From positions 1 through 64,000 of the forward strand of contig JAGHTW010000054.1 of NCBI GenBank assembly GCA_018065145.1: a stretch of 64,000 bases of DNA. Direction: 5' to 3'. Source of the stretch: Candidatus Prevotella equi (GTDB lineage Bacteria; Bacteroidota; Bacteroidia; Bacteroidales; Bacteroidaceae). This document shows, one piece after another, positions 1 to 55,716 of the stretch. Within the stretch, counting starts at the first letter, position 1. Each line of letters opens with the position of its first letter. The translations under genes were made by a program, and so were the position numbers. The notes beneath the pieces are model-generated. The model saw only the letters and a list, made by a program, of their open reading frames with translations, made no database searches and was not told the origin of the DNA.

Positions 1-201
1 CTAACCTCTGTCTATCGCTCTGTCTCTCGCTATGGCTCTGCCTATGGCTATGCCTAGGCCGACGGCTAGGGCTCAGGCGAGGGCTATGGCTCTGGCGATG
101 GCTATGGCGATGGCTATGGCTCTGGCTCTGGCTCTGGCTATGGCTCTGGCGATGGCTATGGCGATGGCTATGGCTATGGCTCTGGCGATGGCTATGGCAT
201 A
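1..201 (+). repeat. Degenerate 6/12-bp tandem repeat (GGCTMTGGCKMT) encoding Gly-[Tyr/Ser/Asp] dipeptides
   Basis: Runs of ggctatggctctggcgatggc; frame 1 reads GSGEGYGSGDGYGDGYGSGSGSGYG... and continues into the ORF at 223-660. Confidence 0.9.
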
Positions 202-660
202 AAAGAGTTTAATCACCAGAAGGTGTATATAGTTGACGATACACCTACACTCATTGATAGCGTGCATGGCAACTATGCAATAGGCAAGAGACTTAATAGT
301 GACCTCACAACGACACCATGCTACATAGCAAAGGTAGGCGACTTCTTCGCTCATGGCGAAACGCTGAAAGATGCACTCGCTGACGCACAGAAGAAGTATG
401 AGGACAACAAACCTATTGAAGAACGAATAGCAGACTTCAAGAAGCAATATCCATCGCTTGACAGTGTAGCAGAGCACAGTGACTTGTATCATTGGCATAA
501 CAAGCTCACAGGCTCATGCACCTTCGGACGTGTTGCTTTCGCAAGAGACCATGACCTTGACAAGGACAACGGCACAATGACGATTCAGGAGTTCATCAAC
601 CTCACTCGCAATGCCTACGGTGGTGACATCATCAGACAGTTAGAAAAATCATACAAGTAA
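70..660 (+). CDS. Gly-rich repeat protein with conserved C-terminal domain (DUF7666-like), possibly 5'-truncated
   Basis: Frame 1 is open from 70 to 660; C-terminus KVYIVDDTPTLIDSVHGNYAIGKRLNSDLTTTPCYIAKVGDFFAHG resembles a phage/prophage family preceded by YGSG repeats; in-frame TAG at 55 and 67. Confidence 0.6.
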   Translation, partial: GSGEGYGSGDGYGDGYGSGSGSGYGSGDGYGDGYGYGSGDGYGIKEFNHQKVYIVDDTPTLIDSVHGNYAIGKRLNSDLTTTPCYIAKVGDFFAHGETLKDALADAQKKYEDNKPIEERIADFKKQYPSLDSVAEHSDLYHWHNKLTGSCTFGRVAFARDHDLDKDNGTMTIQEFINLTRNAYGGDIIRQLEKSYK

Positions 661-8684: not shown

Positions 8685-10541
8685 ATGGAAAAAATGAAAA
8701 AATTTGCATACAAGGAGAAACTGACATCTACCAAACTCAACAAAATGGTCGACGCAGTAAATGCGAAGCCAGATGTCGTGTTTCTCAACGAGTATGAGGC
8801 AGGAGGTAAGGTATTGCCGACACTGAAAGCGAAATTCCTGTATTTTGACGAGGAAATGGGCGACGGTGAGACTTATATGACACACGGTCGTACTATCTAC
8901 GATATTCACAACGAAATCGCAGAAACACCAAAGTATTACCATGTCTTCTGTTGCGCCCACGACAAGGAGCAGAGTGGTGACGGTAATGGCTACATCTACA
9001 TCGTCTACGACGACACGCTTAACTACGTCCGTACATACCGTATTGAGCAAGGTATTGGGGAAATTCCTATGGTAATCCTCAGAGCGTTCGGAGAAGATAA
9101 CGCTTTCTCCGACCTCTCCAACCTTTCGGCAGAAGGAGAGGAGAAGATAAAGGACTTGATTGGTGATATTGCTTTCAAAGAGGAGCGTATCGAAATATCT
9201 CTTTCTACTGATTTCGGCGTAATAAATTGGTTGGGCAAGAATGTTAAAATAACAGTAGGTTCAACGGAGAAAATTCGTCCACTTGATGCACATGGTCATT
9301 TAGTGCTATGGGTAAGATTTGGCGAGACTTATACAATCACGTTCCCAGAGGTTGAAGGATATAATGCTGTTGACCCTGTTTCGTACACAGCCGAAGAATA
9401 CGTCAGAGTTGTTGCTGCTCACTACAGAAAGCATTACGACGACCTGCGTGATGTAGCACGTTCCTTTGTGGTAGAAGCAAGTCCTAACCCAGAGATTGAG
9501 GTTACAGGCAGTGAGGAGGTGATTGACCGCATACTCTCGCATGGTGCATACGTCATTGACGAGACGAACAAGAAGTACGCTCGCTTGTCAGAGACTGACA
9601 GCAACACCTTTGAGGATGGAACACCTTGGAATGGCATCTACGGCAACGCTTTCCGCTATCTGCCACAGATATACGTTCTTCGTGACAAGGACTACACCGA
9701 TGGTGGCACGAAGTATTGGGTTAGCGATAAGCCGATAGGCGATGTAGAGCCACTGCCAGAGTCATGGATTGGCATGTATAAGGGCAGTTACATGGATAAC
9801 GTGCTGCGCTCTATCCCTAACGTAATGACGCAAGAGACTCAAACGATGTCGCAATTCTGGAATGCAGCGCAGCGTTTAGGTGCTGACTATGGTCTTGTAA
9901 ACTATTTCGACCATCAGAAGCTCAACGCTCTGCATCTTGCGAAGTTCGGTAATATGAATAGCGATGTTACTGTAGGTGAAGGCTTGTGCAACGCTGGTCA
10001 AGGATATTGGAATCACCGAACAGGCACAACGGCAGCACTTGGCAACGGAACAGGCACTGCGCCATATCTCAACACATCATTCCGAATGGTTAGGCTCTTC
10101 GGCATTGAAGACCTATTCGGCACAACGTGGGAGTTCAGACCAAACATTCGCTTCGATGGTGGCAACGCCATTGTCTATGATGGCAACGTCGTAAGCAATT
10201 CAGCACAGGGCAAGCGTATCTTTGGAAGATTGCAGACTGCGAGTCAACAGTACATAATGAATATGGCTCTTGGTGACGATTTCGACTTGGTGGCTGTTAA
10301 TGCAAATGGTGCAAGTGCAAGTACATACTGGTGTGACGGAACATGGGCTGCAAGTACAGGACAGATCCTTCGCGTTGGCGGTGACTCGATTCGCGGTTCG
10401 ATTTGCGGTCTCTCGTGCTCGGAATCGGATGGCGTGTTCTCGCTCTCGTCTGCGTCTGTCGGTGCTCGCTTGGCTTTCAAAGGCGATATAAACGACTACG
10501 AACTCGTAAGCGGTGCAGAATTGGCGGCACTTCATTCATAA
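8685..10541 (+). CDS. DGR variable protein (C-type-lectin/FGE-like C-terminus), putative receptor-binding or tail protein
   Basis: C-terminal RLFGIEDLFGTTWEFRPNI...YWCDGTWAAS...GSICGLSCSESDGVFSLSSASVGARLAF, with VR at the C-terminus matching a nearby TR and adjacent RT. Confidence 0.88.
   Translation: MEKMKKFAYKEKLTSTKLNKMVDAVNAKPDVVFLNEYEAGGKVLPTLKAKFLYFDEEMGDGETYMTHGRTIYDIHNEIAETPKYYHVFCCAHDKEQSGDGNGYIYIVYDDTLNYVRTYRIEQGIGEIPMVILRAFGEDNAFSDLSNLSAEGEEKIKDLIGDIAFKEERIEISLSTDFGVINWLGKNVKITVGSTEKIRPLDAHGHLVLWVRFGETYTITFPEVEGYNAVDPVSYTAEEYVRVVAAHYRKHYDDLRDVARSFVVEASPNPEIEVTGSEEVIDRILSHGAYVIDETNKKYARLSETDSNTFEDGTPWNGIYGNAFRYLPQIYVLRDKDYTDGGTKYWVSDKPIGDVEPLPESWIGMYKGSYMDNVLRSIPNVMTQETQTMSQFWNAAQRLGADYGLVNYFDHQKLNALHLAKFGNMNSDVTVGEGLCNAGQGYWNHRTGTTAALGNGTGTAPYLNTSFRMVRLFGIEDLFGTTWEFRPNIRFDGGNAIVYDGNVVSNSAQGKRIFGRLQTASQQYIMNMALGDDFDLVAVNANGASASTYWCDGTWAASTGQILRVGGDSIRGSICGLSCSESDGVFSLSSASVGARLAFKGDINDYELVSGAELAALHS
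10366..10480 (+). repeat. DGR variable repeat (VR)
   Basis: 115-nt ungapped match to 10601-10715 with 18 mismatches, 15 at TR adenines. Confidence 0.95.
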
Positions 10542-10600
10542 GGTGTTTAATTATGCAAAATAATAATCATATCATTTAATAATAGGCAGAAGAGTGTAGC

Positions 10601-10715
10601 TCCTTCACGTTGGCGGTAACTCGAATAACGGTTCGATTTGCGGTCTCTCGTGCACGTACTCGAATACCGTGTTCTCGCACTCGTATGCGAATATCGGTGC
10701 TCGCTTAACTTTCAA
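10601..10715 (+). repeat. DGR template repeat (TR)
   Basis: tccttcacgttggcggtaactcgaataacgg...tcgcttaactttcaa; adenine-specific differences to VR, 235 nt downstream of VR. Confidence 0.95.
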
Positions 10716-10866
10716 CATATTTACAAGTTGAGTACACTCTTTTTTGCCTTCTGCTACTTCTCTACTTTGTGTAGGAATGTCAGAAAACATAGGACAAGCC
10801 TGTTTATAGGCATTGCGTAAGTAAGTGTTACAGCCGAAAGCCCGATAGTCCAAGCAAACGAAAGCC

Positions 10867-12204
10867 ATGCGTGGAAAGAACAGAAAGATAACACTCGCAC
10901 AGGTATATGACATCAACAATGTCAGAGCTGCTGATTTAGAAGCGAGGAAAGGCAAGGCACAGAACTATGGTGTAAGGAAATTCGACAGGAACAAGGAAAG
11001 TAATCTGATTGCTATTTCCGAAGCCATAAAGAACGGTACTTTCAAGACAATGCAACCAGTCTTTGAAGAGCGATACTGCGACAAGAAGGTACGTGTGCTT
11101 TCAAAAGTACATTATCCTTATCATGTGGCACATCATGCGTTAATGCGCGTTATAATGCCAGTTCTTGAAAAAGGCTATTACTACGAGAGTGCTGCAAGCA
11201 TTAAAGCCAGAGGTATTCATTACAGTGTAAAACATGTGCGTAAATGGATAGATTTGCATAGGTCACAGGCTTTATGGTGGGCGCAGGTTGACTTTAAGAA
11301 GTTCTATCATCACATCAACCGCCAGAAACTCTACGACCGCCTTTGTAAGACGTTCAACGATGAAGGTATAAGGTGGATGCTCCATGATATAATATGGGCG
11401 TTAGGAGAACACAATGGTATAGAACCGTCCGATGGGACTGAGGGCGTTGGTATAGGACTGTACCCTATACAACCTCTTGTTAATTTCTATACAGGAGATA
11501 TGGTGCGAGACGTTAACAGTATCAAAGGAATAAGACTGTTTGTGTATTGCGACAATAATCTTATATTGGGTACTTCTCCTGATTCTGTATGGGAAGCAGT
11601 AAACAGGATAAGATTTTGGGCAGACAATATACTGCGTCAACCTATTCACGATAATATAGGAGTCCAGAGGCTTGATGAAGTCCATCCAGTAGATTACTGC
11701 GGTTATCTATTCTTTCGTGAGCATACGCTTATAAGAAAATCCACGAAATACAAATTCAAGAAGAGATACAAAAAGACTATTAATGACGAAGTTAAGCATA
11801 GACAGGTGTTGGCATCGTATAAAGGTTGGCTTGAACACTGCAATGGTTTAACTCTTTGGCAGAAAGTTACTGGTATGAAACGATTTAGCGAATTAGGAAT
11901 ACAGCGTGGCACTATGCTACGTGACGGAAAGAAATTCTTTGACGTACCTTCGGTATCTGCGTCATTTCTTGTTGACAGAGATATAATAGTGAAAGACTTC
12001 GCTGAAAATTGCGACACTGGAAATGGTAAAGGACGAATGTATGTATTGGTGGAAGAGAACGGAAAAGAAATGAAGTTCTGTACTAACAATCCACGCTTAA
12101 AAGATACACTAAAACAAGTACAAGAACTTGGAGAATTACCTTTCAAGGCGACATTTCACGTTCGTAATACGCAAGGTGGAAGACCAGATTATTATTTTGA
12201 ATAA
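10867..12204 (+). CDS. DGR reverse transcriptase
   Basis: RT motifs VDFKKFYHHI, GLYPIQPLVNF (DGR-style Q motif), FVYCDNNLIL, DYCGYLFFREHTLIRKSTKYKFKKR; adjacent to TR. Confidence 0.92.
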   Translation: MRGKNRKITLAQVYDINNVRAADLEARKGKAQNYGVRKFDRNKESNLIAISEAIKNGTFKTMQPVFEERYCDKKVRVLSKVHYPYHVAHHALMRVIMPVLEKGYYYESAASIKARGIHYSVKHVRKWIDLHRSQALWWAQVDFKKFYHHINRQKLYDRLCKTFNDEGIRWMLHDIIWALGEHNGIEPSDGTEGVGIGLYPIQPLVNFYTGDMVRDVNSIKGIRLFVYCDNNLILGTSPDSVWEAVNRIRFWADNILRQPIHDNIGVQRLDEVHPVDYCGYLFFREHTLIRKSTKYKFKKRYKKTINDEVKHRQVLASYKGWLEHCNGLTLWQKVTGMKRFSELGIQRGTMLRDGKKFFDVPSVSASFLVDRDIIVKDFAENCDTGNGKGRMYVLVEENGKEMKFCTNNPRLKDTLKQVQELGELPFKATFHVRNTQGGRPDYYFE

Positions 12205-12206
12205 TT

Positions 12207-12530
12207 ATGACAGGAACATCAACGAAACCAGTTCCATTCGTTCAGAACGAAGGGCTGACAACAACAATCTCATTTAACGAGAATATTATTACAGAAAAAG
12301 ACGGTCAGAAGACTTACGAGTATGAGACGGTCATAGTGAACAACCCTTTAACCTATGGTGGCATTGTGTCTACTATTGTACGTGACAAGTACAGTGGGGA
12401 CGATGTAGAGGCAATCATCCTCAATGGCACTGACACCGCAGAGCATAAGGCAGAGTACGAGGCACTACAGAAGTGGCGCAAGACAGCGAAAGAGATAGCG
12501 CATAAGATATTAGAGAACGAAGCAGAGTAA
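12207..12530 (+). CDS. Hypothetical protein downstream of DGR RT
   Basis: 107-aa ORF. Confidence 0.6.
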   Translation: MTGTSTKPVPFVQNEGLTTTISFNENIITEKDGQKTYEYETVIVNNPLTYGGIVSTIVRDKYSGDDVEAIILNGTDTAEHKAEYEALQKWRKTAKEIAHKILENEAE

Positions 12531-21416: not shown

Positions 21417-23024
21417 ATGAGAAGAATACGAGATATGGCAGAAGAGAAAATCATACAACCGCAAAAAGGAGGTCAGGACTACTTCGTTCGGACTAACGTA
21501 GACGTGGCTATATACGGCGGCGTGCTCGCGGCTGGAAAGACGTTCGCTTCCATTCTTGCTGTTGCTGAACCTGCGAAAGACCCTAAATTCCGTGCAACTT
21601 TCTTCCGTAGAACATTTGGTCAGCTGAAGCAAGCAGGCGGTATTGTGGACGACTTTAAGAATGCCTACGGAAAAGAGATAAGCATGACTATCTCAGAAGC
21701 CCCACGTGCAACATTCAGTAGTGGTGCTTATGCGGAAATGCAACAGATACAGGACGAAAACCCGAAGAAAGTCATAGAGAAATTCAAGGGTCTTCAGTCC
21801 GACGCAATATTCTTTGACGAGTTGACTGGTTTCGAGTGGTTCACGTTCACTTATCTTATGTCTCGTTGCCGTGGTAAGGGTAAGTGGAGTGGCAAGGTAA
21901 GAGCGACTACCAACCCCTCAAAGCGTCATTGGCTCAGAACATTTCTTGATTGGTATATCAGACCCGACGGTACGATTGACCCTGCTAAGAGTGGTTGGGT
22001 GAGATATTTCTATATTTACGGAGACAAGGTAAGTGAAGTTGCTTGGGGTGACACAAAGGAAGAGGTTTACGAGAAATGCAAGATTGCCATTGACCGCAAA
22101 CTGGCATCGTTCAACGGAAAGTTTACCTACAAGGATTTGATTAAATCATTTACCTTTATTCTTGGAAACCTTGCAGAGAACTCCGCACTGACAGACGGTA
22201 ACGCAGGTTATGCAGGTAATGTAGCGGCGACTGGTGGTAAGATGTCAGACGCTTTGCTCAGTGGTAACTGGAATGTAGATGTTGACCTTGACGAAGATGC
22301 TCCTATATCAAGTGTAGCTGCTAACAGCGTATTTACCGCCGACCCTCAGATGAACAACGACAGGTGGATTACCTCAGACCTTGCAGACACGGGTACTGAT
22401 AACTTCTTGGCTATTGCGTGGAATGGTTTTCATATAATGGATATCCTTATTCTTACAAGAACTACCCCACGTCAGAACGCCGAACACTTGAAGATATTTG
22501 CTCAGAAGCACGATGTGGCAGACGACCATATAATCTACGATGCCATCCGAGGAACGTATATCAACGACTACATAGAAGACGCTGTGCCATTTGTTAGTTA
22601 TCGTGCTCCTATGGGAATGTACGCAAGACTTGCTTACAACCTAAAAGCTGAGTGTTACCTACGTCTGGTAAAGATGATAACTGATGGCAGACTAAGCATG
22701 AACGAAGTCGTAGCAGCGAGCCGATATATTCATGCGAAACTCAATCAGAATGTAATGATTGCAACGGAGTTCGTTGAAGAATGTGGTGTAGTGCGTTTCA
22801 AGGATATGCCGTCGGGTAAGAAGCAGTTGCTTTCCAAGAAAGAAATGAACGCAATGCTTGGTAAGGGTCGTTCAATGGACTTGCTTGACCCTATTGCTAT
22901 GCGAATGCTTCCAGTGCTTGACGTACCTTATGGCGATGAACTCACATTTGGCTTAACAAATATGTTTGAGGACGAGAAAGAGGAGGAAGACGAGAATATA
23001 TACGAAGATAACTTTTGGGCATAA
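21417..23024 (+). CDS. terL: Terminase large subunit
   Basis: Large ATPase/nuclease terminase-like: GGVLAAGKTFASILAV, DAIFFDELTGFEWFTF, TNPSKRHWL, nuclease-like C-terminus. Confidence 0.8.
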   Translation: MRRIRDMAEEKIIQPQKGGQDYFVRTNVDVAIYGGVLAAGKTFASILAVAEPAKDPKFRATFFRRTFGQLKQAGGIVDDFKNAYGKEISMTISEAPRATFSSGAYAEMQQIQDENPKKVIEKFKGLQSDAIFFDELTGFEWFTFTYLMSRCRGKGKWSGKVRATTNPSKRHWLRTFLDWYIRPDGTIDPAKSGWVRYFYIYGDKVSEVAWGDTKEEVYEKCKIAIDRKLASFNGKFTYKDLIKSFTFILGNLAENSALTDGNAGYAGNVAATGGKMSDALLSGNWNVDVDLDEDAPISSVAANSVFTADPQMNNDRWITSDLADTGTDNFLAIAWNGFHIMDILILTRTTPRQNAEHLKIFAQKHDVADDHIIYDAIRGTYINDYIEDAVPFVSYRAPMGMYARLAYNLKAECYLRLVKMITDGRLSMNEVVAASRYIHAKLNQNVMIATEFVEECGVVRFKDMPSGKKQLLSKKEMNAMLGKGRSMDLLDPIAMRMLPVLDVPYGDELTFGLTNMFEDEKEEEDENIYEDNFWA

Positions 23025-23619: not shown

Positions 23620-25164
23620 ATGACAAGAAAAGAAATTGTAACCGCATTACTTGCAGACCCCGACAAGTTGCTCTCGAAGAAGCCATTCTTCCGAGAACTT
23701 GATGTGCGTACTCCAAGTATGACCTCCGACGTAGAGGTGGGGCAGAAACTACGTGTTAAACTGCCGTCTATCAGATATACGGTGGTAGACCAGTCTCAGT
23801 ACCTCAAAGAACTTGACCCTTACAGTCACAGTGTCTTATTTGATACAAACATACCATCGGTTTGTGTCAAGACACAGAACAACGGCTATCAAGAGATTAA
23901 GGAGGTGAGGATGGCTTTGCCGTACCAAGAGACCATTCGTGATAAGCACGTTCTGCATTTGTGCGCCAATTCTATGCAGCACACTTTGCTTGATAGTGAA
24001 CCCTCCGACGTTGTAGCCAAGGATTTCGATACTATCAAGAAGTATTGGGAACTCCGAAATATGGAGGGATTAAAGACTCAAATGGTCAGTGCCCAGAAAT
24101 CTGTCGGCGATGCAGGTATGTTGTTCTATTTAGACCACAAAAACGAGGTACACGCAAGAATACTTCAGTACCCCGAATACACTATCATAACCCACAAGGA
24201 CGACAATGGAGACCATTGCCTTGAATGCGTGTATTACAGCGATGGAGAGCACGAATACGTTGACTGTTATGACGACAACTATTTCTACCGACTGACAACA
24301 GACGACAGTCAAGGCGTTCACGACCCTCAGACAGGTTGGTCTTACCTGCCGCCTGTTAAGCATGGCTTCTCTGAAATCCCACTTATTACCAAGCGTGGCA
24401 GCGTGGCATGGGACAGAGTGCAGACTCTCATAGAAATGTTCGAGACGCTTTACAATATATTCTATGTCATTCAGAAGCGTCATGGTTGGGGCATTCTTTA
24501 CGTCAAGGGTAAGTTTACCGATACCGCCAAGAAAATCGCAGGTTCGGTTATTCTCAACGACAAGTCAATGAACGACAAATCAGACGCTAAGTTCCTCACA
24601 GCACCTACCCCCGACGGTACGATACAAACGCTTGAAAAAATGTTCGACGAAATACAGATAGGAGGAGGTGCAACCATACTTTTGCCAAAGGACATCAAGG
24701 CAAGCGGAGATATATCTGGTATTGCCATACAAATGACACAGAGCCGAGATATTGAGACTGCATTGGACGGCGTAACAGAGTGGCAGAATGTCGCTAACAA
24801 GATGATGCGATTATTCAAGGAAGGACTTGGTCGGGAATTTGTTTTGAAAGGCGAAGACCAAACAGCACTTACTCGTTTTGTCAAAATGCCGATATGCAGT
24901 AAGTTCCGTATTTGGAAACCATTCTCCGAGAGCGAGTACAATCAAATGCTTGGAACACTCAAAGGCGCAGGTCTTCTCTCTACCAAGACAGGCATTGAAC
25001 TAAATACGGTTTCTGCGCCAGACGAGTTAAAGCGTGTCAATAAAGAGACAGAAGAGACGTTCCAGACAACACTTAAACAGCAGGAAGCCACAAAGAAGAT
25101 GGAGGCGAAATACGCTACCCAGAATACAACTACATCTACAAGTTCAACCTCTAAGAAAGAATAA
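23620..25164 (+). CDS. Portal protein
   Basis: 514 aa, position directly after TerL, SPP1-like portal composition (DKHVLHLCANSM..., SGIAIQMTQSRDIETALDGVTEWQ). Confidence 0.75.
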   Translation: MTRKEIVTALLADPDKLLSKKPFFRELDVRTPSMTSDVEVGQKLRVKLPSIRYTVVDQSQYLKELDPYSHSVLFDTNIPSVCVKTQNNGYQEIKEVRMALPYQETIRDKHVLHLCANSMQHTLLDSEPSDVVAKDFDTIKKYWELRNMEGLKTQMVSAQKSVGDAGMLFYLDHKNEVHARILQYPEYTIITHKDDNGDHCLECVYYSDGEHEYVDCYDDNYFYRLTTDDSQGVHDPQTGWSYLPPVKHGFSEIPLITKRGSVAWDRVQTLIEMFETLYNIFYVIQKRHGWGILYVKGKFTDTAKKIAGSVILNDKSMNDKSDAKFLTAPTPDGTIQTLEKMFDEIQIGGGATILLPKDIKASGDISGIAIQMTQSRDIETALDGVTEWQNVANKMMRLFKEGLGREFVLKGEDQTALTRFVKMPICSKFRIWKPFSESEYNQMLGTLKGAGLLSTKTGIELNTVSAPDELKRVNKETEETFQTTLKQQEATKKMEAKYATQNTTTSTSSTSKKE

Positions 25165-27688: not shown

Positions 27689-28843
27689 ATGAAGTACGAT
27701 TTCCAAAATTCAACCTATTCAAAGCTTTGGGATTCCAAGGAGGGTGGTGCTCTCCTTACCTATCTCCTCAACGACCCAGAGCTGATTCGCAGTAATCACA
27801 ATTTCTGGAGACAGAAGTTTACTGTCGACCCTAATATCACTCCAACAGCTGCAGACGGTACTGCAACCTTTACCTCTCGCCTTCGTAAGCTTGAGTCTGG
27901 TTCACTACTCCACATGAGAGCACCTATGGGCGATACAATCGTTCGCGATAAGCAGGGCGTTGAGTTCTATACTGGTATAGTTCCAGATTTTATCTCTGAT
28001 GGCTTCCGTGAGCAGGCTATGGAGCGTGAGTACAAGGAACAGCAGTTCGTTGAGAACTTCGGTAACGACGCTATGATTATCGCTCAGTTCGCCAACGAGG
28101 TACAGGCTCTTGTTGACAGTGCCGACCAGACCCTCTCTAATATGGGCGCACAGGTAATGACCAAGGGACACATCTACTACAACTTCGGACAGGGTATCAC
28201 AGGCGGTCTCTACAAGGCTGAGATTCCTGCTGAGAACTTTATTACCGCAGGTGCGAAGGTTTGGGCAGACCCAGACTGTAAACTCCTCGACCAGATGCGT
28301 GAGATTGAGAACAAGTTCAAGGAGGCGTGGGGTCTTGAGTTCCCAATGCAGTGGGAAGTTCCTTACGACATGTGGCACAATGTCATTCTGAAGAACAATC
28401 AGATTCGCACATGGGTGCTTGAAAACCGCAAGCTCAACAATCAGGTTGTCGTTGACGATATGGTTGTTACCGAGGCAATGGTTAAGGAGTATATCGGCAC
28501 ATTCGAGGGTGTATCTCCTATCGTAGTTATCGAGGAGAAGCAGAAGGACGAGGGCGTTACCGTACACGGCTGGAAACAGAATATAGCCGTTCTCCGTCCA
28601 CGCGGTTATGCAGGTGTTATTCGCCACACTACTATCCTCGACCAGAAGATGTACCAGAAGTACGGTTCAAACCTTATTTCTCGCGTCTTCGCAAAGACCC
28701 TTAACGGTCTCTGTACCGTTGAGAACATTACTCTGAACAATGGTAACATGAAGGAATGGCAGACACATCTTATGATGTCCGCTATACCGTCTCTGGACGA
28801 GTTCCTCTGGCATGTGATTTGTGATACAACCACTGCGGACTAA
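27689..28843 (+). CDS. Major capsid protein
   Basis: 384 aa, position in head module, downstream of scaffold. Confidence 0.7.
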   Translation: MKYDFQNSTYSKLWDSKEGGALLTYLLNDPELIRSNHNFWRQKFTVDPNITPTAADGTATFTSRLRKLESGSLLHMRAPMGDTIVRDKQGVEFYTGIVPDFISDGFREQAMEREYKEQQFVENFGNDAMIIAQFANEVQALVDSADQTLSNMGAQVMTKGHIYYNFGQGITGGLYKAEIPAENFITAGAKVWADPDCKLLDQMREIENKFKEAWGLEFPMQWEVPYDMWHNVILKNNQIRTWVLENRKLNNQVVVDDMVVTEAMVKEYIGTFEGVSPIVVIEEKQKDEGVTVHGWKQNIAVLRPRGYAGVIRHTTILDQKMYQKYGSNLISRVFAKTLNGLCTVENITLNNGNMKEWQTHLMMSAIPSLDEFLWHVICDTTTAD

Positions 28844-33087: not shown

Positions 33088-36000
33088 ATGGCACAAGCGG
33101 ATATAGATGGATTTAGAATCAACATTGACGACACACTTGCGAGTGACATTCAGAAAGTGGATAAGGCACTTGCAGGCATCGCAGCGTCTGGCGAAAAAGC
33201 TGCGACAGCGATTAACTCTTTTGCACATGCAGTTAATGGTATAGACCTAAACACTATCCAAAATACCAAAAATTTAGCAACGGCATTTGGCGATATAAAA
33301 TCCTCTTTGGATGGTATGAAGAAAAAAACACTTTCGGATATGGCTACCAGCCTTTCAAGCATATCCAAAAGTATGAATACGATGCAATCTGACAAACTGC
33401 GCACTATGTTTAGCGATGCCGAGTCTCCTGCTGCAAAGATTTTCGAGTTGGTAAACAATATGGCTGTTGTTATCAATGGATTACAATCGCGGTCTTTGAG
33501 TAAAGCCTTATCAGAAGTTGCAAATACACCTATTGATAGCGAGGGTAAACAAAAAGGCAGTAGAAATACAGTACCCTTAAAAGGTAAATTTGAGAGTGAT
33601 TCTGATTTTAACAGTCAGATGGAGACTCTAAGGCGTAAAATTGTAGAGTATTTTCAATCTCATCCAATTCCAGTTAAACTTGACGATAGGGTTAATCTTG
33701 AAGGGTTTGTGCAAGTTCGCAAAGACCTTGAAAAGATGTTTAAGAACATATCGGTTACATTAAAAACGACGGAAATAGGCGAAAAAGGAACAAGAAAAAC
33801 TAAAGAAAAGACCGCAACGAGTGTAGAAAATGTTCCTGTTGTTGATAATGCCGATAAAAAGGCACTTGACGAAGTAAATGAAAAACTTCGTACCCAGATT
33901 GCTTTGCTTAGAGAAAAGCGTAACGCTATGCAAGGCAGTATTAGGTCAACAGGTACGGGAGATTTTTTTATACAAGGTGACATTGATTCTATTACGAAGA
34001 AAATAGAGGAATTATACAAAGCACGTCACGAACTTCTTACAAAAATACGTGGTGTGTCTTACGATGAATCTATCGCGAAGGCTAATCAGACCGAACTTGA
34101 ACTTATTAAGAATATAGAAAAAGAAGGTACGGCTCGTCAGCAGAATATCGCTTGGCTTACTCAAATGAGAAGTCTTCTCGAAAATATTCTTACAAGGGGT
34201 CAGGGTGTTGATATGTTCTCTGGTATGCAGCAACATATTGTTGATGCTCGTGGTGAACTCGAAAAGTTGCTCAAAGAACAGAGGACTACTACCGAACAAA
34301 AAAACGACAGATGGTACAAAGAGGGCGTACAATACTATGACAACCTTGCAAAATCACGACAGAAAACTGACGAGGAGTTGGACAAAGCATTAGCAAAAGC
34401 AGATGCAAATAGAGAAAAACGCTCAGAAGACCTGTACTACGCCGAAATGCAACGCTTAAAGAGTCTGTACGCCGAGCGTCTTCGCCTCGAAAAGGAGTTA
34501 CAGACTCTGTCAAACAAGGAAACTCTGAGCAAGAAGACTGAGGGTAAAACTCCTGCTTTGACACAAGATGAAATTGCACTCACACAAAAACTCCGTGAGC
34601 AGATTGCGTACAACAGGTCTCAAATTGCAGAAGTTATAAGTATCTATGGTAGACAGGAAGATGTAGCACGTGCATATTATTCCTACGAAGTAGGTGCGCT
34701 GCGTCAGAAGATAGAACTTACGGAAAAATACAACAAGTTACTGGAAAAGGCAACTACACCAAAAACGACTACTACGTCTACTGACACCTCCAACAAGGAG
34801 GTAGATATGCAGCGTCTAAAGAAGTTGTACTCCGACCGTCTGCGCCTTGAAAAAGAACTCGCAGGTCTCAACAATAAGCAAGACCTCAGTGTGAAGACCA
34901 ATGGTCAGACTCCTGCTTTGACACAGGAAGAGATAAATCTGCAAGAAAAGTTGAAGGCACAGTTAAGTGCTACACGTAACGAGATAGCACAAATCATAGG
35001 AGAGTACGGCAGACAAAAAAGCGTCGCAAAAACGTATCACTCCTATGAGATAGAGGCGTTACGTCAGAAAATCGCTTTATCCGAAAAGTATAACTCTACC
35101 TTAGCAAAGGCACAGAGTGGTACTTCTGCGCCTACTATATCTCCTATTCAAGCGCAGATTAACGAACTTAATGCGGCTGCAACCACAAAACTCACTTCGT
35201 TGCAGCAGGAAATGAATCAGTATTCTGCAAGTATTACTCTGTTAAGTTCTAAAATAGCAGAGTTACAGGCTCAAACTTCATTCTTCGAGCAGAAGAACAG
35301 AGAGGAGTACGACAAGACCAATGCCAAGATAAGGGAGAACGAAGAACTTCTTCAACTTGCTAAACAACAGATAGCAGAATATCAGGCGAAGATGTCCGCA
35401 AGTTCTGATAAGTTTGAACGTGCTGCATACCAGTCTGGTATTGAGGGTTGGACAAAAGGTATACAGAGAATTGAGGCAGAGAACAAGACTCTCATTGAAA
35501 AACTCAATACTATTGCAACTAACGACCAGCAAGCAAGGCAGAATGCTATTTCTCAAATGCAAGGTCAGATAGCAGGTGAAAATCTTCTTTATCAAACAAC
35601 GCTTGACCAGATTGAAAAAGTCAAGAAAGAGAATGACGATATGATTGCTCGTTTGAAGCGCATAGAGGAAATCAAAGGTCTCCTTAAAGAAGTTGAAGAC
35701 GAGTATCGAAAACTTGTTCTCTTGGGCGAAGCAGTCAACTCTGAGGGTAAAACATCCGCAGAAGCAAAAGCACTTATAGAGCGTAAGCAAGGCTATGAGC
35801 AGGAACTTGGCTTGTTACAGCGTAATATTGCCGAAGCCGAGAAGATGGCACAGGCAGAGGAGTTGACCAATGCTCAAATAAAGCAGATGCAGAACGAGTA
35901 CGCTCGTCTTCTTGTGGAGATTGACAAAGTAACCGCTTCTCGTCAGAAAATGAGAGACCTTCGTGATTCCTCAGAGTGGGGTAGCGAAATCCGAAGCAAA

Positions 36001-39000
36001 ATGATTTCTGGTATTAGCAACGCCAATACTGAGTTGGATAAACTTGAAGAGCGTAAAAAATATATCGAAGAAAAACTTGAAGACGAACTCGACAAAATCA
36101 AAGCAACTCATGAGCGCAAGCGTGCCGAGCAGTCATTAAAGGACTTTGAAGACGCTGAGAAAAAGAAGACCGAAGCCGCAAAGAAAGCCGCAAGGGAGCG
36201 TGCTGATGAAGAGAAGCGTCAGTCTCAAGCAAAGAGTGATTGGCTTAAAAAGCAAGCAGAATACACCGAGCAGTACCGACAGACATCGTTAGGTGCTTCT
36301 CTCTTTGGAAAATCCGCGCTTACTTCTGGTACTTATAACGACACAACAAAAGCCCTGAAGTATTTGCAGACTGCGATGGCAAATGTCAAGCCAAATACCG
36401 AGGAATGGAATAAGATGAACACTATTTATCAGCAGTTAAAAAGGAATGCTGATGAATATCGCAAGGCTATGGAGGGCGTTAAGACACAGTCTCTAAACCT
36501 TATACCTACCCTCAACAACCTCGCTATGCAGGTAGGTCTTGTATTCAGTGTCCAACAGGTTAGACAATGGATAAAGCACATGGCAGAGGTTCGTGCTCAG
36601 TTCGAGTTGCAGAATATTGCATTGCAGAGTATTCTTGCTAACAAGGCAGAGGGTGATAGAATATTCTCACAGGTACAGCAACTTGCGTTGAAGAGTCCAT
36701 TCTCTATTATGCAGTTGACTACCTACACCAAACAGATGGCTGCATACCAGATTGAGTCTGAAAAACTCGTAGACACAACTAAGAGGTTGGCTGATGTATC
36801 AGCAGGACTTGGCGTAGATATGGGTCGTCTCATCCTTGCATACGGACAGGTAAAATCTGCTAACTACCTCAGAGCCACTGAGGTTCGTCAGTTTACCGAG
36901 GCTGGACTCAATATCTCGCAGGAACTCGCAAAATACTTCTCTGAACTCAAAGGCGAAATGGTATCTGTTGCAGATGTTACAGATATGATTACCAAACGTA
37001 TGGTTATGTTCGAGGACGTAGAAGAAGTATTCCGTAGAATAACAAGTGCAGGCGGTATGTTCTATAACATGCAGGAGAAGCAAGCCGAGGGACTTGCAGG
37101 TCAGATACAGCGTATCTCCGACGCTTATGCTATGGCTCTAAATGATATTGGAAAGTCAAATCAGGGCTTGTTGTCATTAGTTCTTACTTTAGCGCGAGTA
37201 TTGCTGAACAACTGGCGTATTCTCGAAAATATGGGTATAGGTGTAGCAGCAGCGTTCGCTACGTATGCAGTAAAAGCAACACTGGCGGCACGTGCAAACA
37301 ACACATTTAATGCAAGTGCGACTGGTGTCGTTGGTTCTATATTCAAGATGAAGACAGCGTTGGTTTCAGTAGGTAATTTTATAAAGAATAATTGGTCGTT
37401 AGTTGTTGTGGCAGGTGTTACTGCTGCTGCGGCGGCTTTATGGGATTTCGGAAAATCTATTTATCAAATAGAAAAAAGATATTCTGATTTCAACTCTGGA
37501 ATTGCTTCACAAAGCGAAGCATTTAATAAAATACGTTATAATATAGAGACCAATAATAGTCTTATAAATATATACGGAAATTACTTAAAAGATGCAAGCA
37601 AAGGCACATCCGAATACTCTTCTGCTCTGTTAAAAATGCAAAAGGCTGTTGCGTCTAATAATACTTCCGTACAGGAATTGATAAATAAATTCCCATTTCT
37701 CCGAAGCCAAATAGAGCAGTCCAAGGATGGCATTATAGACCTTGTTAAAGTGCAAGAGGCTTTCAATGAAATGCAAGGTCTTCAGCAGTATATTAACACA
37801 AAACAAGATGATAGTCATTTCTTTTCTGATGATATTATCGAAGATATGCAGGAATACTCCGAGTATATGGACAAGTTGAACGCAAAACTTGTAGACCATC
37901 GCGCGGAAATATCTGCAACAGTTGTAGAAATGCAACAGTGGGCAGCAGAACAAAAAAACATTGGTGTAAATGGTGACGATGCTCAAGAAGTACAAAAACT
38001 GGCTACTTTGTGGGGTGATGTCGTAACTTATATCAACCGAGCAAAGGAGGCTGGTGCTTCAAATACTGAAATATATAGTCATATATATAACGAATATGTA
38101 AAAATAAACAAAGAGGTAGAGAACTACGCAAAAAAACAAGGGGGTATAAATTCTGAATTGAGCAGATATTCCTCCGAGTTGATTGAACAGTTACTCGAAA
38201 TGTCTAACGCCTATAAGGAAACGATACAAGGTGGAACTTCTATACTTGACTGGCAAAATCACGTTTCAGAAGTAGACAAAGAAGTAAATAAACTCTTTGA
38301 TAGCATAGCCACGTATTACGGAACAACTACCGACAAATTAAAGAAACTTACGGACGACCAGAAAAAAATGGCGACCGAAGCTGCCCGTCACTGGTTTCAA
38401 GAGCATAAACTTGCACTTGATGATTACCAAGTCGAATTACTTAACAGAAAATGGCAGATTACGGTAGGTGTCAAGTTTAAGGAGGATGACGTGTCTGGCG
38501 ATTTGGACTTTTTGCAGAAGCAGATAAACAATTACGTTAGTTCTCATAGTCTACTATCTGTAGATGCATCTTTCAATCTGCGAGACAAAGAGAAATCAGA
38601 CGATTATTTCAAGCGTCTTAATGCTAATGTCAAAGACTTGGAGCAACAAATAAATTCTACCAGTCGTGCAACTGCGCAATTAAACGAAGGCATAAGCAAT
38701 AAGGAAAAAGTAAAAGAGTTACAGAAGCAGAAAGATGAAACTATTGCCTTACTGAAGTATTTTGGTCAGTACGAAGATAAGACAAAAGGCGGTGATAAGA
38801 CCGAGGAACTTATGCGCAAGCGTATCGACCTTATCAAGAAAGCCAACTCCGAGTACGAGAAGATGTCCAAGGAAATGGATAAGGTCAACGCTCGTAATAG
38901 GGTACTGAATGCTTTTGTCAAAGAAGCCAAGACCTTGGGTATTGAGGACATCTTTAAGGCTGATATGTTCGACGACAAATCTACACTTTCTGCTATGCAG

Positions 39001-41445
39001 AAGGTAGAGCAGAGATTTGCGGCTACTCTTGCTAACCAGAAGTACATCGGTGCAAAGCGTTACGTCGAAGAGCAGATAGGCGAAGCCGAACTCAATGTAT
39101 TCGTAAGTGTCAACAAAGAAAGTCGTGAGCGTGTAAAGCGTGAAATGGACGAAATGTTTGGCAGTTATGAACTCTTTGTCGAACTTGATAAGATGGGTGT
39201 AAAGACAGATGTTGCACAGGCGTTGTTTGGTAATCTTACCAATAGTCTGGACGCGGTCGAGTCTTCTTGGAAGCAGAAGTTTGTCTCAATGATGGACGAA
39301 CAATATCGTCAGATGGACGCAAACTTTGTAGGTTTCAAATCTTACGAGGAAGCCAAGCAGAAAGTAGCAGAGGACAATCTAAACGAGAACTTAAAACTTG
39401 CTGAGGATATGGAAAAGAAGATAACCGATGCAAGGAACAAGGAGTTGCAGACACGTCTGAAGGACTACACCAAGTATCTCAAATCTGCGTATTCCGAAGC
39501 TGTAAACGTAGAGGTAAATGCCTATAAGGAACTCGCACAGCAGGAAACCGATAGAGAAGCACTCGTATTGAAAGTCAAAGTTAATCCAGAACTCTCTCAA
39601 ACAGAGAAAGATGCTGCTATTAAGAATATCAACGCGCAGTTTGCTTCTATGCGTCTGGCATTGCAGAAAGAGACTAACAACAAACTTGGAGAAATCAAGT
39701 TTAAGGAGTTCAAGGAAAACCCTATCTTTGTAGAGTTGTTCGGCGACCTTGATACTTTGGGTAAGAAAGTCATTGATATGCTTATCAAGAAAATTCACGA
39801 CTTGAAGTCTGAGATTGGTTCTTTAGACCCTAAGCTTATCAAGGAACTCACTCAGTACGAGACAAAGTTGTTCGAGGCAAGAGCCGAGAAGAATCCTTTT
39901 GGAGAGTATATTTCTGCGCTTAAAGAGATTCATAAGTTGCACAAACAAGGTCTTAACAAGGAAAAACTCGAAGAGCAACTTATCTCACAGGAAGCCGAGA
40001 GGCAAGCAGCACAAGACCAATACAATATGTATTCAAAAATGCTCGCTATCAAGGAAGGTCTTATTAAGGTTGACGGCAAACTCTCTACTGAAGAACAAGC
40101 CATACTGAAATATTCATCTGAAAAGATACAAAAGTATCTGAATACGGCTGAAGAAACACTAAATACTAAGACAGGTTTAGTCCAGAAGACCCAAGACCAA
40201 CTTAGTGCATACGAAAAAGCAGTAATCGCCGCTAATAAAGCGTCTAAAAGATTGCAAGATATTTCGCAGTTGACGAGTGGTGCTTTTGGTGCTCTCAATG
40301 AGGGAATAAGGCTGTTTGGCGGTAGTCTTAGTGATGCCGACCAAGCATGGATGGATTTTGCCGAACAGGCAATCTCTTCTACCATTCAGTTGATAGCCCA
40401 AATGGTACTACTTGGTGTTGCTGTAAACGAGGCAGCTGGTATCATAGGTATCATTGCAACCGCCTTAACCGTTGTTGCAGGTCTTTTTAAGGCTATTTTT
40501 AACGCACATGAGGCTAAATTGCAAGAACAGATTGAGGATATGCAAAGACAAGTTGACAAGTTGCAACGCTCATTTGACGACCTCAAAGATTCTATTGACA
40601 ATGCTTTTAGCAGTGCCGCTTTAAGTGCTGGTATGGATGCTGCAATACGCAACCTTGAAGAACAGAATAGGCAATATGAGCGTATGATACGTCTCGAAAG
40701 AGAGAAAAAGGACGCAGATGAAGACAAGATACAGGGATATTTGAATGCTATTGATGACAACAAGAAGAAGATGAAAGAACTTCAAGAAGATTACATCACG
40801 AACCTTGGAGGCTTCGGTAGCGGCTCTGATGTTGCACAAGCGGCTCAATCATTTGTAGACGCTTGGACGGATGCGTTCGGGGAAACAGCGGAGGGTTTAT
40901 CTGGATTGCAAGATACTTTTGATGATTATATCAAGAATATAATGAAGAAACAGGCATATCTAAAAGCTGCTGAGTTCTGGATTAAGCCTCTTACTGATAA
41001 GATAAACAGTGCTTTCAATAAGTATGGCGGTGTGGATTTCAATCAACTCAAAGCAACCTACGAGGAGTTCAAAAACAATGGTATGATTCAAATGGACGCT
41101 TTTATGGAGGACTTCACGAAGATGTTTGAGGATTTATTCGGAATGTCATGGGGTGACAGTGCAAGTCAACTTAGTGGTTTGGCAGCTGGCATACAAGGCG
41201 TAACAGAGGAGACAGCACAGGTGCTTGAAGCCTTGCTTAACTCTATGAGGTTCTATGTTGCAGATAGCAACAAGGATTTGAAGACTATAATGCTTACGCT
41301 CACCAATCCTCCGTCAGACAATGTCTTCCTGTCAGAGTTGAAGGCGCAGACGGCTCAACTGGAAATGCTTAACAAGACACTTAACGGACTTGTAAGAGCA
41401 GGTCACAGAATGGGTGGACACGGTCTTAAAGTATTCACGAATTAG
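33088..41445 (+). CDS. Tape measure protein
   Basis: 2785 aa, long coiled coils, hydrophobic segments, after tail chaperones. Confidence 0.92.
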   Translation: MAQADIDGFRINIDDTLASDIQKVDKALAGIAASGEKAATAINSFAHAVNGIDLNTIQNTKNLATAFGDIKSSLDGMKKKTLSDMATSLSSISKSMNTMQSDKLRTMFSDAESPAAKIFELVNNMAVVINGLQSRSLSKALSEVANTPIDSEGKQKGSRNTVPLKGKFESDSDFNSQMETLRRKIVEYFQSHPIPVKLDDRVNLEGFVQVRKDLEKMFKNISVTLKTTEIGEKGTRKTKEKTATSVENVPVVDNADKKALDEVNEKLRTQIALLREKRNAMQGSIRSTGTGDFFIQGDIDSITKKIEELYKARHELLTKIRGVSYDESIAKANQTELELIKNIEKEGTARQQNIAWLTQMRSLLENILTRGQGVDMFSGMQQHIVDARGELEKLLKEQRTTTEQKNDRWYKEGVQYYDNLAKSRQKTDEELDKALAKADANREKRSEDLYYAEMQRLKSLYAERLRLEKELQTLSNKETLSKKTEGKTPALTQDEIALTQKLREQIAYNRSQIAEVISIYGRQEDVARAYYSYEVGALRQKIELTEKYNKLLEKATTPKTTTTSTDTSNKEVDMQRLKKLYSDRLRLEKELAGLNNKQDLSVKTNGQTPALTQEEINLQEKLKAQLSATRNEIAQIIGEYGRQKSVAKTYHSYEIEALRQKIALSEKYNSTLAKAQSGTSAPTISPIQAQINELNAAATTKLTSLQQEMNQYSASITLLSSKIAELQAQTSFFEQKNREEYDKTNAKIRENEELLQLAKQQIAEYQAKMSASSDKFERAAYQSGIEGWTKGIQRIEAENKTLIEKLNTIATNDQQARQNAISQMQGQIAGENLLYQTTLDQIEKVKKENDDMIARLKRIEEIKGLLKEVEDEYRKLVLLGEAVNSEGKTSAEAKALIERKQGYEQELGLLQRNIAEAEKMAQAEELTNAQIKQMQNEYARLLVEIDKVTASRQKMRDLRDSSEWGSEIRSKMISGISNANTELDKLEERKKYIEEKLEDELDKIKATHERKRAEQSLKDFEDAEKKKTEAAKKAARERADEEKRQSQAKSDWLKKQAEYTEQYRQTSLGASLFGKSALTSGTYNDTTKALKYLQTAMANVKPNTEEWNKMNTIYQQLKRNADEYRKAMEGVKTQSLNLIPTLNNLAMQVGLVFSVQQVRQWIKHMAEVRAQFELQNIALQSILANKAEGDRIFSQVQQLALKSPFSIMQLTTYTKQMAAYQIESEKLVDTTKRLADVSAGLGVDMGRLILAYGQVKSANYLRATEVRQFTEAGLNISQELAKYFSELKGEMVSVADVTDMITKRMVMFEDVEEVFRRITSAGGMFYNMQEKQAEGLAGQIQRISDAYAMALNDIGKSNQGLLSLVLTLARVLLNNWRILENMGIGVAAAFATYAVKATLAARANNTFNASATGVVGSIFKMKTALVSVGNFIKNNWSLVVVAGVTAAAAALWDFGKSIYQIEKRYSDFNSGIASQSEAFNKIRYNIETNNSLINIYGNYLKDASKGTSEYSSALLKMQKAVASNNTSVQELINKFPFLRSQIEQSKDGIIDLVKVQEAFNEMQGLQQYINTKQDDSHFFSDDIIEDMQEYSEYMDKLNAKLVDHRAEISATVVEMQQWAAEQKNIGVNGDDAQEVQKLATLWGDVVTYINRAKEAGASNTEIYSHIYNEYVKINKEVENYAKKQGGINSELSRYSSELIEQLLEMSNAYKETIQGGTSILDWQNHVSEVDKEVNKLFDSIATYYGTTTDKLKKLTDDQKKMATEAARHWFQEHKLALDDYQVELLNRKWQITVGVKFKEDDVSGDLDFLQKQINNYVSSHSLLSVDASFNLRDKEKSDDYFKRLNANVKDLEQQINSTSRATAQLNEGISNKEKVKELQKQKDETIALLKYFGQYEDKTKGGDKTEELMRKRIDLIKKANSEYEKMSKEMDKVNARNRVLNAFVKEAKTLGIEDIFKADMFDDKSTLSAMQKVEQRFAATLANQKYIGAKRYVEEQIGEAELNVFVSVNKESRERVKREMDEMFGSYELFVELDKMGVKTDVAQALFGNLTNSLDAVESSWKQKFVSMMDEQYRQMDANFVGFKSYEEAKQKVAEDNLNENLKLAEDMEKKITDARNKELQTRLKDYTKYLKSAYSEAVNVEVNAYKELAQQETDREALVLKVKVNPELSQTEKDAAIKNINAQFASMRLALQKETNNKLGEIKFKEFKENPIFVELFGDLDTLGKKVIDMLIKKIHDLKSEIGSLDPKLIKELTQYETKLFEARAEKNPFGEYISALKEIHKLHKQGLNKEKLEEQLISQEAERQAAQDQYNMYSKMLAIKEGLIKVDGKLSTEEQAILKYSSEKIQKYLNTAEETLNTKTGLVQKTQDQLSAYEKAVIAANKASKRLQDISQLTSGAFGALNEGIRLFGGSLSDADQAWMDFAEQAISSTIQLIAQMVLLGVAVNEAAGIIGIIATALTVVAGLFKAIFNAHEAKLQEQIEDMQRQVDKLQRSFDDLKDSIDNAFSSAALSAGMDAAIRNLEEQNRQYERMIRLEREKKDADEDKIQGYLNAIDDNKKKMKELQEDYITNLGGFGSGSDVAQAAQSFVDAWTDAFGETAEGLSGLQDTFDDYIKNIMKKQAYLKAAEFWIKPLTDKINSAFNKYGGVDFNQLKATYEEFKNNGMIQMDAFMEDFTKMFEDLFGMSWGDSASQLSGLAAGIQGVTEETAQVLEALLNSMRFYVADSNKDLKTIMLTLTNPPSDNVFLSELKAQTAQLEMLNKTLNGLVRAGHRMGGHGLKVFTN

Positions 41446-54543: not shown

Positions 54544-54575
54544 CAAAGTTACTAAAATTTTATGAATTATGCAAA
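54544..54575 (-). promoter_or_regulatory. Promoter TTTG-N20-TAACTTTG (minus strand)
   Basis: caaagtta 54544-54551, caaa 54572-54575 on plus; ATG of the SbcC-like gene at 54539. Confidence 0.65.
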
Positions 54576-55286
54576 TAATTTCTTACATTTCGCATACATA
54601 GCACGGAAGCGAGGTATATCGTATTCCATACCTGTAGCGGTCTTGATGTTGTTTCGGTTGAGTTCGTCTACGAATACCTGTGCGTCCTTTGCCTTGTAAG
54701 CACGTCCGTACATCTTTTCAAGGGTCTTGACGAACTGCCAGAAACGCTTGTTGTTTTCGTTTGACTTAGCGGCTTCTTTCTTTGCCTTGCAGGAAGCCGT
54801 GTTAGCCGCCTTACAAGCCACGGCACGAGTAGTACCCGTATTCTTGCCGTAGTTCTCACTCCAAGTCTCGCCACGGTCTTTCTTTGCTTTCAGAGCTGCC
54901 TTGGTACGTGAACTAATAAGTTCTCTTTCATACTGAGCAACAGAAGCAAAAACACCGAGTATCATTGTGTTTACAACTGGCATATCTACAAAGTGAATAT
55001 CAATACCAGTGTTAATAACCTTAAAGGTAAACTCGACATCGCGTGCCAATCTGTCTAATTTGTTTATAACCAGCGTATTACCCGTTTCTTTACAGTAATC
55101 TATTGCCGCCCACAAACCCTTACGTGTGCGAGATTTGCCACTTTCAATGTCTTGAAAGACTTTATCAACACTTCCGTTCTGAGAATTAATGTAATTAGTA
55201 CAAGCTGCAAGCTGACCTTCCAAGCCTAATTTTGAATCTCCTTGCTTGGTTGTACTAACACGAATGTAAATTGCGAATTTTTTCAT
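54567..55286 (-). CDS. Serine recombinase (resolvase/invertase family)
   Basis: MKKFAIYIRVSTTKQGDSKLGLEGQ, NKLDRLARDVEF, PVVNTMILGVFASVAQYERELISSRTKAALKAKK. Confidence 0.9.
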   Translation of the reverse strand: MKKFAIYIRVSTTKQGDSKLGLEGQLAACTNYINSQNGSVDKVFQDIESGKSRTRKGLWAAIDYCKETGNTLVINKLDRLARDVEFTFKVINTGIDIHFVDMPVVNTMILGVFASVAQYERELISSRTKAALKAKKDRGETWSENYGKNTGTTRAVACKAANTASCKAKKEAAKSNENNKRFWQFVKTLEKMYGRAYKAKDAQVFVDELNRNNIKTATGMEYDIPRFRAMYAKCKKLFA

Positions 55287-55390
55287 ACTAAAAAAATAAG
55301 GCAAGGTGTTCATTAAGGTCTCGCACACCTCAACTACTTACCATGCCCATTATGTTTCTGTTCGATAGGTGCGAGCTATCTTTATATTTG

Positions 55391-55464
55391 TATGGGAAGA
55401 GAGACTCGAACTCCCGACCACCTCAGCCCAAGTGAGGTACGCTAACCAACTGCGCTATTCCCAT
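55391..55464 (-). tRNA. tRNA-Pro (anticodon TGG)
   Basis: atgggaa/ttcccat acceptor, D and T arms, cctca-cttgggc-tgagg anticodon arm. Confidence 0.85.
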
Positions 55465-55471
55465 AAATAGT

Positions 55472-55543
55472 TGCGAAGGGGAGGCTCGAACTCCCGACCT
55501 CAAGGTTATGAACCTTGCGAGCTACCAACTGCTCTACCTCCGC
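55472..55543 (-). tRNA. tRNA-Met (anticodon CAT)
   Basis: gcggagg/ccttcgc acceptor, caagg-ttcataa-ccttg anticodon arm. Confidence 0.85.
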
Positions 55544-55550
55544 GATATTG

Positions 55551-55626
55551 CGCCCCTTGCAGGACTTGAACCTGCGCCATCCAGACAGATAACTGCCACG
55601 GCTCTAACCAACTGAGCTAAAGGGAC
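55551..55626 (-). tRNA. tRNA-like gene with unresolved anticodon arm
   Basis: gtccctt/aaggggc acceptor, gctc...gagc D arm, gcagg-ttcaagt-cctgc T arm, but no normal 5+7+5 anticodon arm. Confidence 0.6.
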
Positions 55627-55633
55627 TGGTGGG

Positions 55634-55709
55634 TGATGAGAGTTGGATTTGCACCAACGACCTTCGGAGTTACAATATCCGACGCTCTAACTAACTGAGC
55701 TATCTCAAA
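55634..55709 (-). tRNA. tRNA, probable Thr (TGT), with atypical anticodon loop
   Basis: D arm gctc...gagc, T arm gttgg-tgcaaat-ccaac, tcgga-tattgtaac-tccga. Confidence 0.6.
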
Positions 55710-55716
55710 ACCGATG

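Follow-up and report, generated by a model that had tools for sequence, protein, structure and literature searches.

A tailed phage of a gut bacterium, encoded in the window, the stretch of 64,000 bases analysed here (bases 1-64000 of a contig of 70,748 bases), carries a diversity-generating retroelement (DGR) whose reverse transcriptase (RT) has an asparagine in place of the second catalytic aspartate of motif 5. The cassette itself is almost certainly a DGR of ordinary kind and would alone be routine, because DGRs of Bacteroidales phages are common. What is new is the asparagine in the active site of the RT, while the DGR is of a familiar kind. From sequence comparison, the element is probably a working phage-borne DGR whose RT tolerates asparagine at the second position of the motif 5 aspartate pair. 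The YxDD aspartates are treated as invariant in RTs and replacing them is the standard dead control; motif-based searches for DGRs may also rely on them. If it is true that natural asparagine variants still show VR changes at adenines only, screens based on YxDD can miss real elements. Such variants are a ready-made comparison for the effect of the active site on adenine-directed errors and would, in that case, serve as a natural experiment on the carboxylates that a DGR RT requires for mutagenesis directed at adenines.

The cassette and its phage

The structural genes of the phage include those for the large terminase subunit (21417-23024), the portal (23620-25164), the major head protein (27689-28843) and a tape-measure protein of 2785 aa (33088-41445). 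A serine recombinase with a Resolvase match (54567-55328) and, on the minus strand, a cluster of four tRNA genes (55390-55710; Pro, Met, Thr and a fourth for which an odd anticodon of two bases was called) were also found. By terminase and RT, the nearest named relatives are Bacteroides phages such as LoVEphage, with about 27-33% identity, the LoVEphage terminase being among the nearest named ones at 27%. No close DNA relative was found in the phage collection, and no direct terminal overlap was found between the ends of the 70.7-kb contig, which starts with low-complexity sequence made up of short repeats resembling GCTATG/GCTCTG (window 1-500). Two other RTs in DGR settings were observed in the same host assembly. 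One of them (L001, G000:C79) reads YVDD and has a bAvd-like neighbour that scores below the curated cut-off, and the other (L003, G000:C218) reads YCDD and has its own VR/TR pair and a DUF4376-like downstream gene.

All elements of the cassette lie on the + strand. The VR (10366..10480) occupies codons 561-599, at the 3' end of the target ORF, and the TR (10601..10715) is non-coding, between the target and RT ORFs and near the latter. The two segments are 115 nt each, are offset by 235 and align without gaps, with 18 mismatches of which 15 fall on the 22 adenines of the TR (hypergeometric p = 4.7e-11); the coordinates and the counts of mismatches and adenines given by the first-pass annotation were recovered exactly on realignment. 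From TR to VR, adenines are changed to G at eight sites, to T at four and to C at three. The three other mismatches are located at non-A bases of the TR, a T at 10657 and C at 10659 and 10667, and the changes are T to G, C to A and C to G. The columns 10657 and 10667 are occupied by A in 13/13 related TRs, so that 17 of the 18 mismatches fit adenine mutagenesis of an ancestral TR. To judge from the relatives, the VR bases at these two columns probably date from a time when A was still present in the TR.

In a scan of the window for copies of the TR, the next-best site matched 43/93 of its non-A bases, against 90/93 for the VR. Across the whole 3.45-Mb host assembly, the TR matched two sites only, the VR and the TR themselves, which indicates a single TR and a single VR; no second VR was found elsewhere in that assembly. 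The adenine bias claimed for this pair extends to related DGRs from viral contigs and Bacteroidales genomes, which have the order target-VR-TR-RT as well; in dozens of them with a recoverable VR/TR pair the mismatches are mostly or exclusively on TR adenines.

The target gene (8685..10541) encodes a phage tail protein of 618 aa (phrog_5302 tail protein, 2.2e-36). Its C-terminal 350 aa or so are related to DGR variable proteins, and at more than 20 loci a homolog of the target lies just upstream of a DGR RT. Searches of the target against Pfam and NCBIfam gave no family match. Against the PDB, the best match of the target family profile was a weak one (E 0.0021) to 5vf4, the structure of TaqVP, a DGR variable protein with an FGE-type CLec fold (PMC6328139). 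The same entry ranked 2 in a Foldseek search with an AF2 model of the target, a poor model with a pLDDT of 51. A CLec fold of the target is likely from these matches, and we infer for it a role in host recognition.

The RT is encoded by an intact ORF of 445 aa (10867..12204; PF00078 2.5e-7, phrog_1423 3.5e-57) that starts 151 bp past the TR, in agreement with the earlier placement of an RT immediately downstream. By sequence, its best match in the PDB is the DGR RT of phage BPP-1, 8ub7 (phmmer 1.1e-19, profile 4.9e-29). A good AF2 model of the protein (pLDDT 87) was matched by Foldseek to the fold of the same entry (2.1e-19, TM 0.89 over target, rmsd 2.7, 24% identity). In a tree that holds a single group II-type RT as outgroup, the window RT is placed apart from that outgroup and among RTs with an adjacent A-biased VR/TR. 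The A-biased VR/TR, the match to the BPP-1 RT and the same anatomy in relatives all support the first-pass assignment to DGRs. The RT ends in an extension of about 105 aa (about aa 340-445; phrog_19665) that is common to p00-type RTs.

Motif 4 reads GLYPIQP (11455..11475), with 'IQ' in place of the 'SQ' of the DGR signature. The pattern (I/V/L)GxxxSQ, which GLYPIQ departs from, was found in 90% of 155 DGR RTs and is usual and not strictly defining; exceptions, including VQ and AQ, are known with A-directed VRs (PMC3521204). 'IQ' is also present in motif 4 of nearly all of the related clade, the nearest relative (L037) having 'VQ'. Between the TR and the RT, a segment at 10810..10848 (GCATTGCGTAAGTAAG...GCCGAAAGCCCGATAG) consists of blocks conserved in ten related loci and probably belongs to the DGR RNA. 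Directly 3' of the RT, an ORF of 107 aa (12207..12530) has no significant Pfam match and is not Avd-like, and neither bAvd nor any other significant Pfam match was detected in the ORFs neighbouring the RT. An Avd-like accessory protein is common in DGRs without being universal. In L037, the gene 3' of the RT (L037:6335-7069) carries a CBM_5_12 carbohydrate-binding module; its counterpart in position in the window is shorter and lacks this module.

The xxDN motif in two RT lineages

Motif 5 of the window RT is encoded by TAT TGC GAC AAT (11545..11556) and reads Y-C-D-N (aa 227-230), a departure from YxDD in which Asn230 stands for the second catalytic aspartate. In the HMMER alignment, Asn230 is paired with the second aspartate of the YMDD motif of bRT. 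An earlier reading of the cassette had overlooked this motif. YxDD is the usual RT signature and not the definition of a DGR. Both motif 5 aspartates were reported to be 100% conserved in 155 DGR RTs (PMC3521204).

The nearest relative found, L037, has an RT that is 56% identical and is located on an independent IMG/VR contig, where motif 5 reads RYCDN. As YCDN recurs on this other contig, the motif is genuine and does not stem from misassembly. In L037, 16 of the 17 VR/TR mismatches fall on TR adenines. Comparison of the two RTs gave a pN of 0.31 and a pS of 0.90, a value at which synonymous sites are saturated; both ORFs are intact and the other motifs are kept. By these measures, the two RTs are under purifying selection which, together with the saturated pS, would mean that the RT was kept long after the change from Asp to Asn, if this change was inherited from the common ancestor. 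The next relative, L038 (52% identity), reads FCDD and all more distant members of the clade read YCDD.

Further YCDN RTs were searched for in viral_contigs (with the window and L037), in genome_contigs and in 398 genomes of the same genus, and only L037 and the window itself were recovered. Single-sequence scans and a pattern search with the VR/TR core did not reveal additional YCDN members either. A literature search, limited in reach, found no DGR RT with YCDN, YADN or FADN. In another DGR-associated RT (L024, G225:C35), motif 5 reads H-C-D-D for Y-C-D-D, and 18 of the 19 VR/TR mismatches are on adenines.

A second lineage of DGR RTs, of 554-555 aa, reads F-A-D-N and comprises six loci, three from the same genus (L028-L030) and three from viral contigs (L131-L133). 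In these six loci, 87/87 VR/TR mismatches are at adenines. Between L030 and L131, the TRs are identical while the VRs differ at 16/25 A sites and at 0/99 others, and the RTs show a divergence of about 1% at third codon positions. This VR pattern is the signature of recent activity. The dN/dS of RTs in this lineage is 0.04-0.07 (about 0.05). HMMER aligns FADN to the YMDD of bRT, and no intact YxDD is conserved in the lineage. Nevertheless, these RTs contain an insertion of about 55 residues with a second motif-like stretch, RYVTD (within 'RYVTDCLLTC'), which makes the identification of FADN as motif 5 less certain. In the RT tree, built with the motif columns left out, xxDN needs at least two origins. 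We lean towards the view that DGR RTs have, at least two times, swapped the second Asp of YxDD for Asn and still work as mutagenic polymerases, whose metal use, speed or fidelity may have changed.

Proposed activity of the YCDN enzyme and its alternatives

In the proposed mechanism, the RT would copy the TR RNA and misincorporate opposite adenines, and the mutated cDNA would take the place of the VR in the 3'-terminal part of the tail protein gene. The product of this gene, a CLec-like receptor-binding protein, would thereby be altered at its exposed tip. With YCDN, one metal-ligand carboxylate, that of the second Asp, would become an amide, and catalysis would depend on the motif A aspartate D142 and on the first motif 5 aspartate D229 as main metal ligands. 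The YCDN enzyme would then both polymerise and have done the mutagenesis itself, and there is a good probability that it is functional now or was so recently. In RNA-virus polymerases, substitutions of the second Asp reduce activity or affect the use of metals but are not always inactivating (PMC4634563, PMC3121795). Against this, other RTs require the aspartates of YMDD: the HIV-1 RT D185N+D186N is inactive (PMC5498913), although, being a double mutant, it is hardly informative on the second residue by itself.

The strongest alternative is a decaying DGR, in which the change from Asp to Asn inactivated the RT and the difference between VR and TR is a fossil of past activity. That the Asn sits at a catalytic position speaks for this, as does the state of the TR. 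The window TR has 22 adenines and related TRs have 26-31 (about 30); it is changed at 9/26 conserved A columns as compared with 7/68 other conserved columns (Fisher p 0.011). On this small sample, which provides a lead only, a mutated copy may have overwritten the TR, the VR may have converted it, or it may be drifting. The three mismatches at non-A bases, a count that exceeds that of most relatives, point the same way and, with the adenine loss, could mean a slow decay of the window DGR. Preferential adenine loss was not observed in the TRs of L037 and L038. Against decay, the TRs of relatives have A at two of the three positions with a non-A mismatch. The Asn is shared by L037, which at 56% RT identity and with saturated synonymous sites has intact ORFs and an A-directed VR, so that the RT appears to have been kept long, and the FADN DGRs show recent change at adenines only. 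A decayed DGR had been the first reading of YCDN; it was weakened by the finding of L037 with both YCDN and A-directed mismatches, and we now regard it as unlikely.

Alternatively, the canonical RT of another DGR in the cell could copy the window TR, leaving the YCDN RT with a structural or RNA-binding role. Candidates for such an enzyme do exist, as the host assembly encodes L001 (YVDD) and L003 (YCDD), both of them RTs in DGR settings. But a TR of its own, followed by a conserved spacer, lies beside the YCDN RT, which keeps motif A and the first motif 5 Asp, and the same pairing of RT and TR is present in L037 on another contig, which makes provision in trans quite improbable. Finally, the idea of a mere duplication in which the base bias of VR and TR arose by chance is refuted, with next to no probability left to it, by the p value of the adenine bias, the adjacent DGR-type RT and the same A-directed arrangement in dozens of relatives. 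A YCDN RT that does the mutagenesis itself is therefore preferred.

Comparison with known systems

Outside DGRs, a natural Asn for the second Asp of palm motif C is found in the polymerases of Birnaviridae (ADN) and Mononegavirales (GDNQ), in which activity is retained (PMC4634563, PMC3121795). These enzymes are RNA-dependent RNA polymerases of other systems and offer an analogy for catalysis only.

The DGR of Bordetella phage BPP-1 (Mtd/bRT/Avd; PDB 8ub7-8ubf) has the same order of target, VR, TR and RT on one strand as the window cassette, the same signature of A-directed mutagenesis, the same RT fold and a target at the tail tip. In BPP-1, the RT reads YMDD and SQ and Avd lies between VR and TR, whereas the RT of the window reads YCDN and IQ and has a C-terminal extension of about 105 aa, and no Avd was found with it. 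The Bacteroides phages p00/hankyphage and LoVEphage also carry Bacteroidales phage DGRs, with RTs that are 26-33% identical to that of the window and have a similar C-terminal extension, but these RTs read YCDD and SQ in contrast to YCDN and IQ.

Database records show the RT of LoVEphage broken up across reading frames. The RT of Phocaeicola phage PV4-TP1, of the LoVEphage group (L004:3860-5403), falls into two frames; the break is located between motifs 3 and 4, and motif 5 (HRYCDD) is encoded in another frame, yet 16 of 17 VR/TR mismatches are at adenines in this locus. A programmed frameshift, a sequencing error or a recent break could each account for this split.

The closest clade is formed by DGRs of viral contigs with an 'IQ' motif 4 (L037-L063, L095-L099, L117-L119). 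The window shares with them the order of the cassette, the TR sequence and the spacer blocks. At motif 5, all of these relatives except L037 read Y/F-C-D-D, where the window RT reads YCDN.
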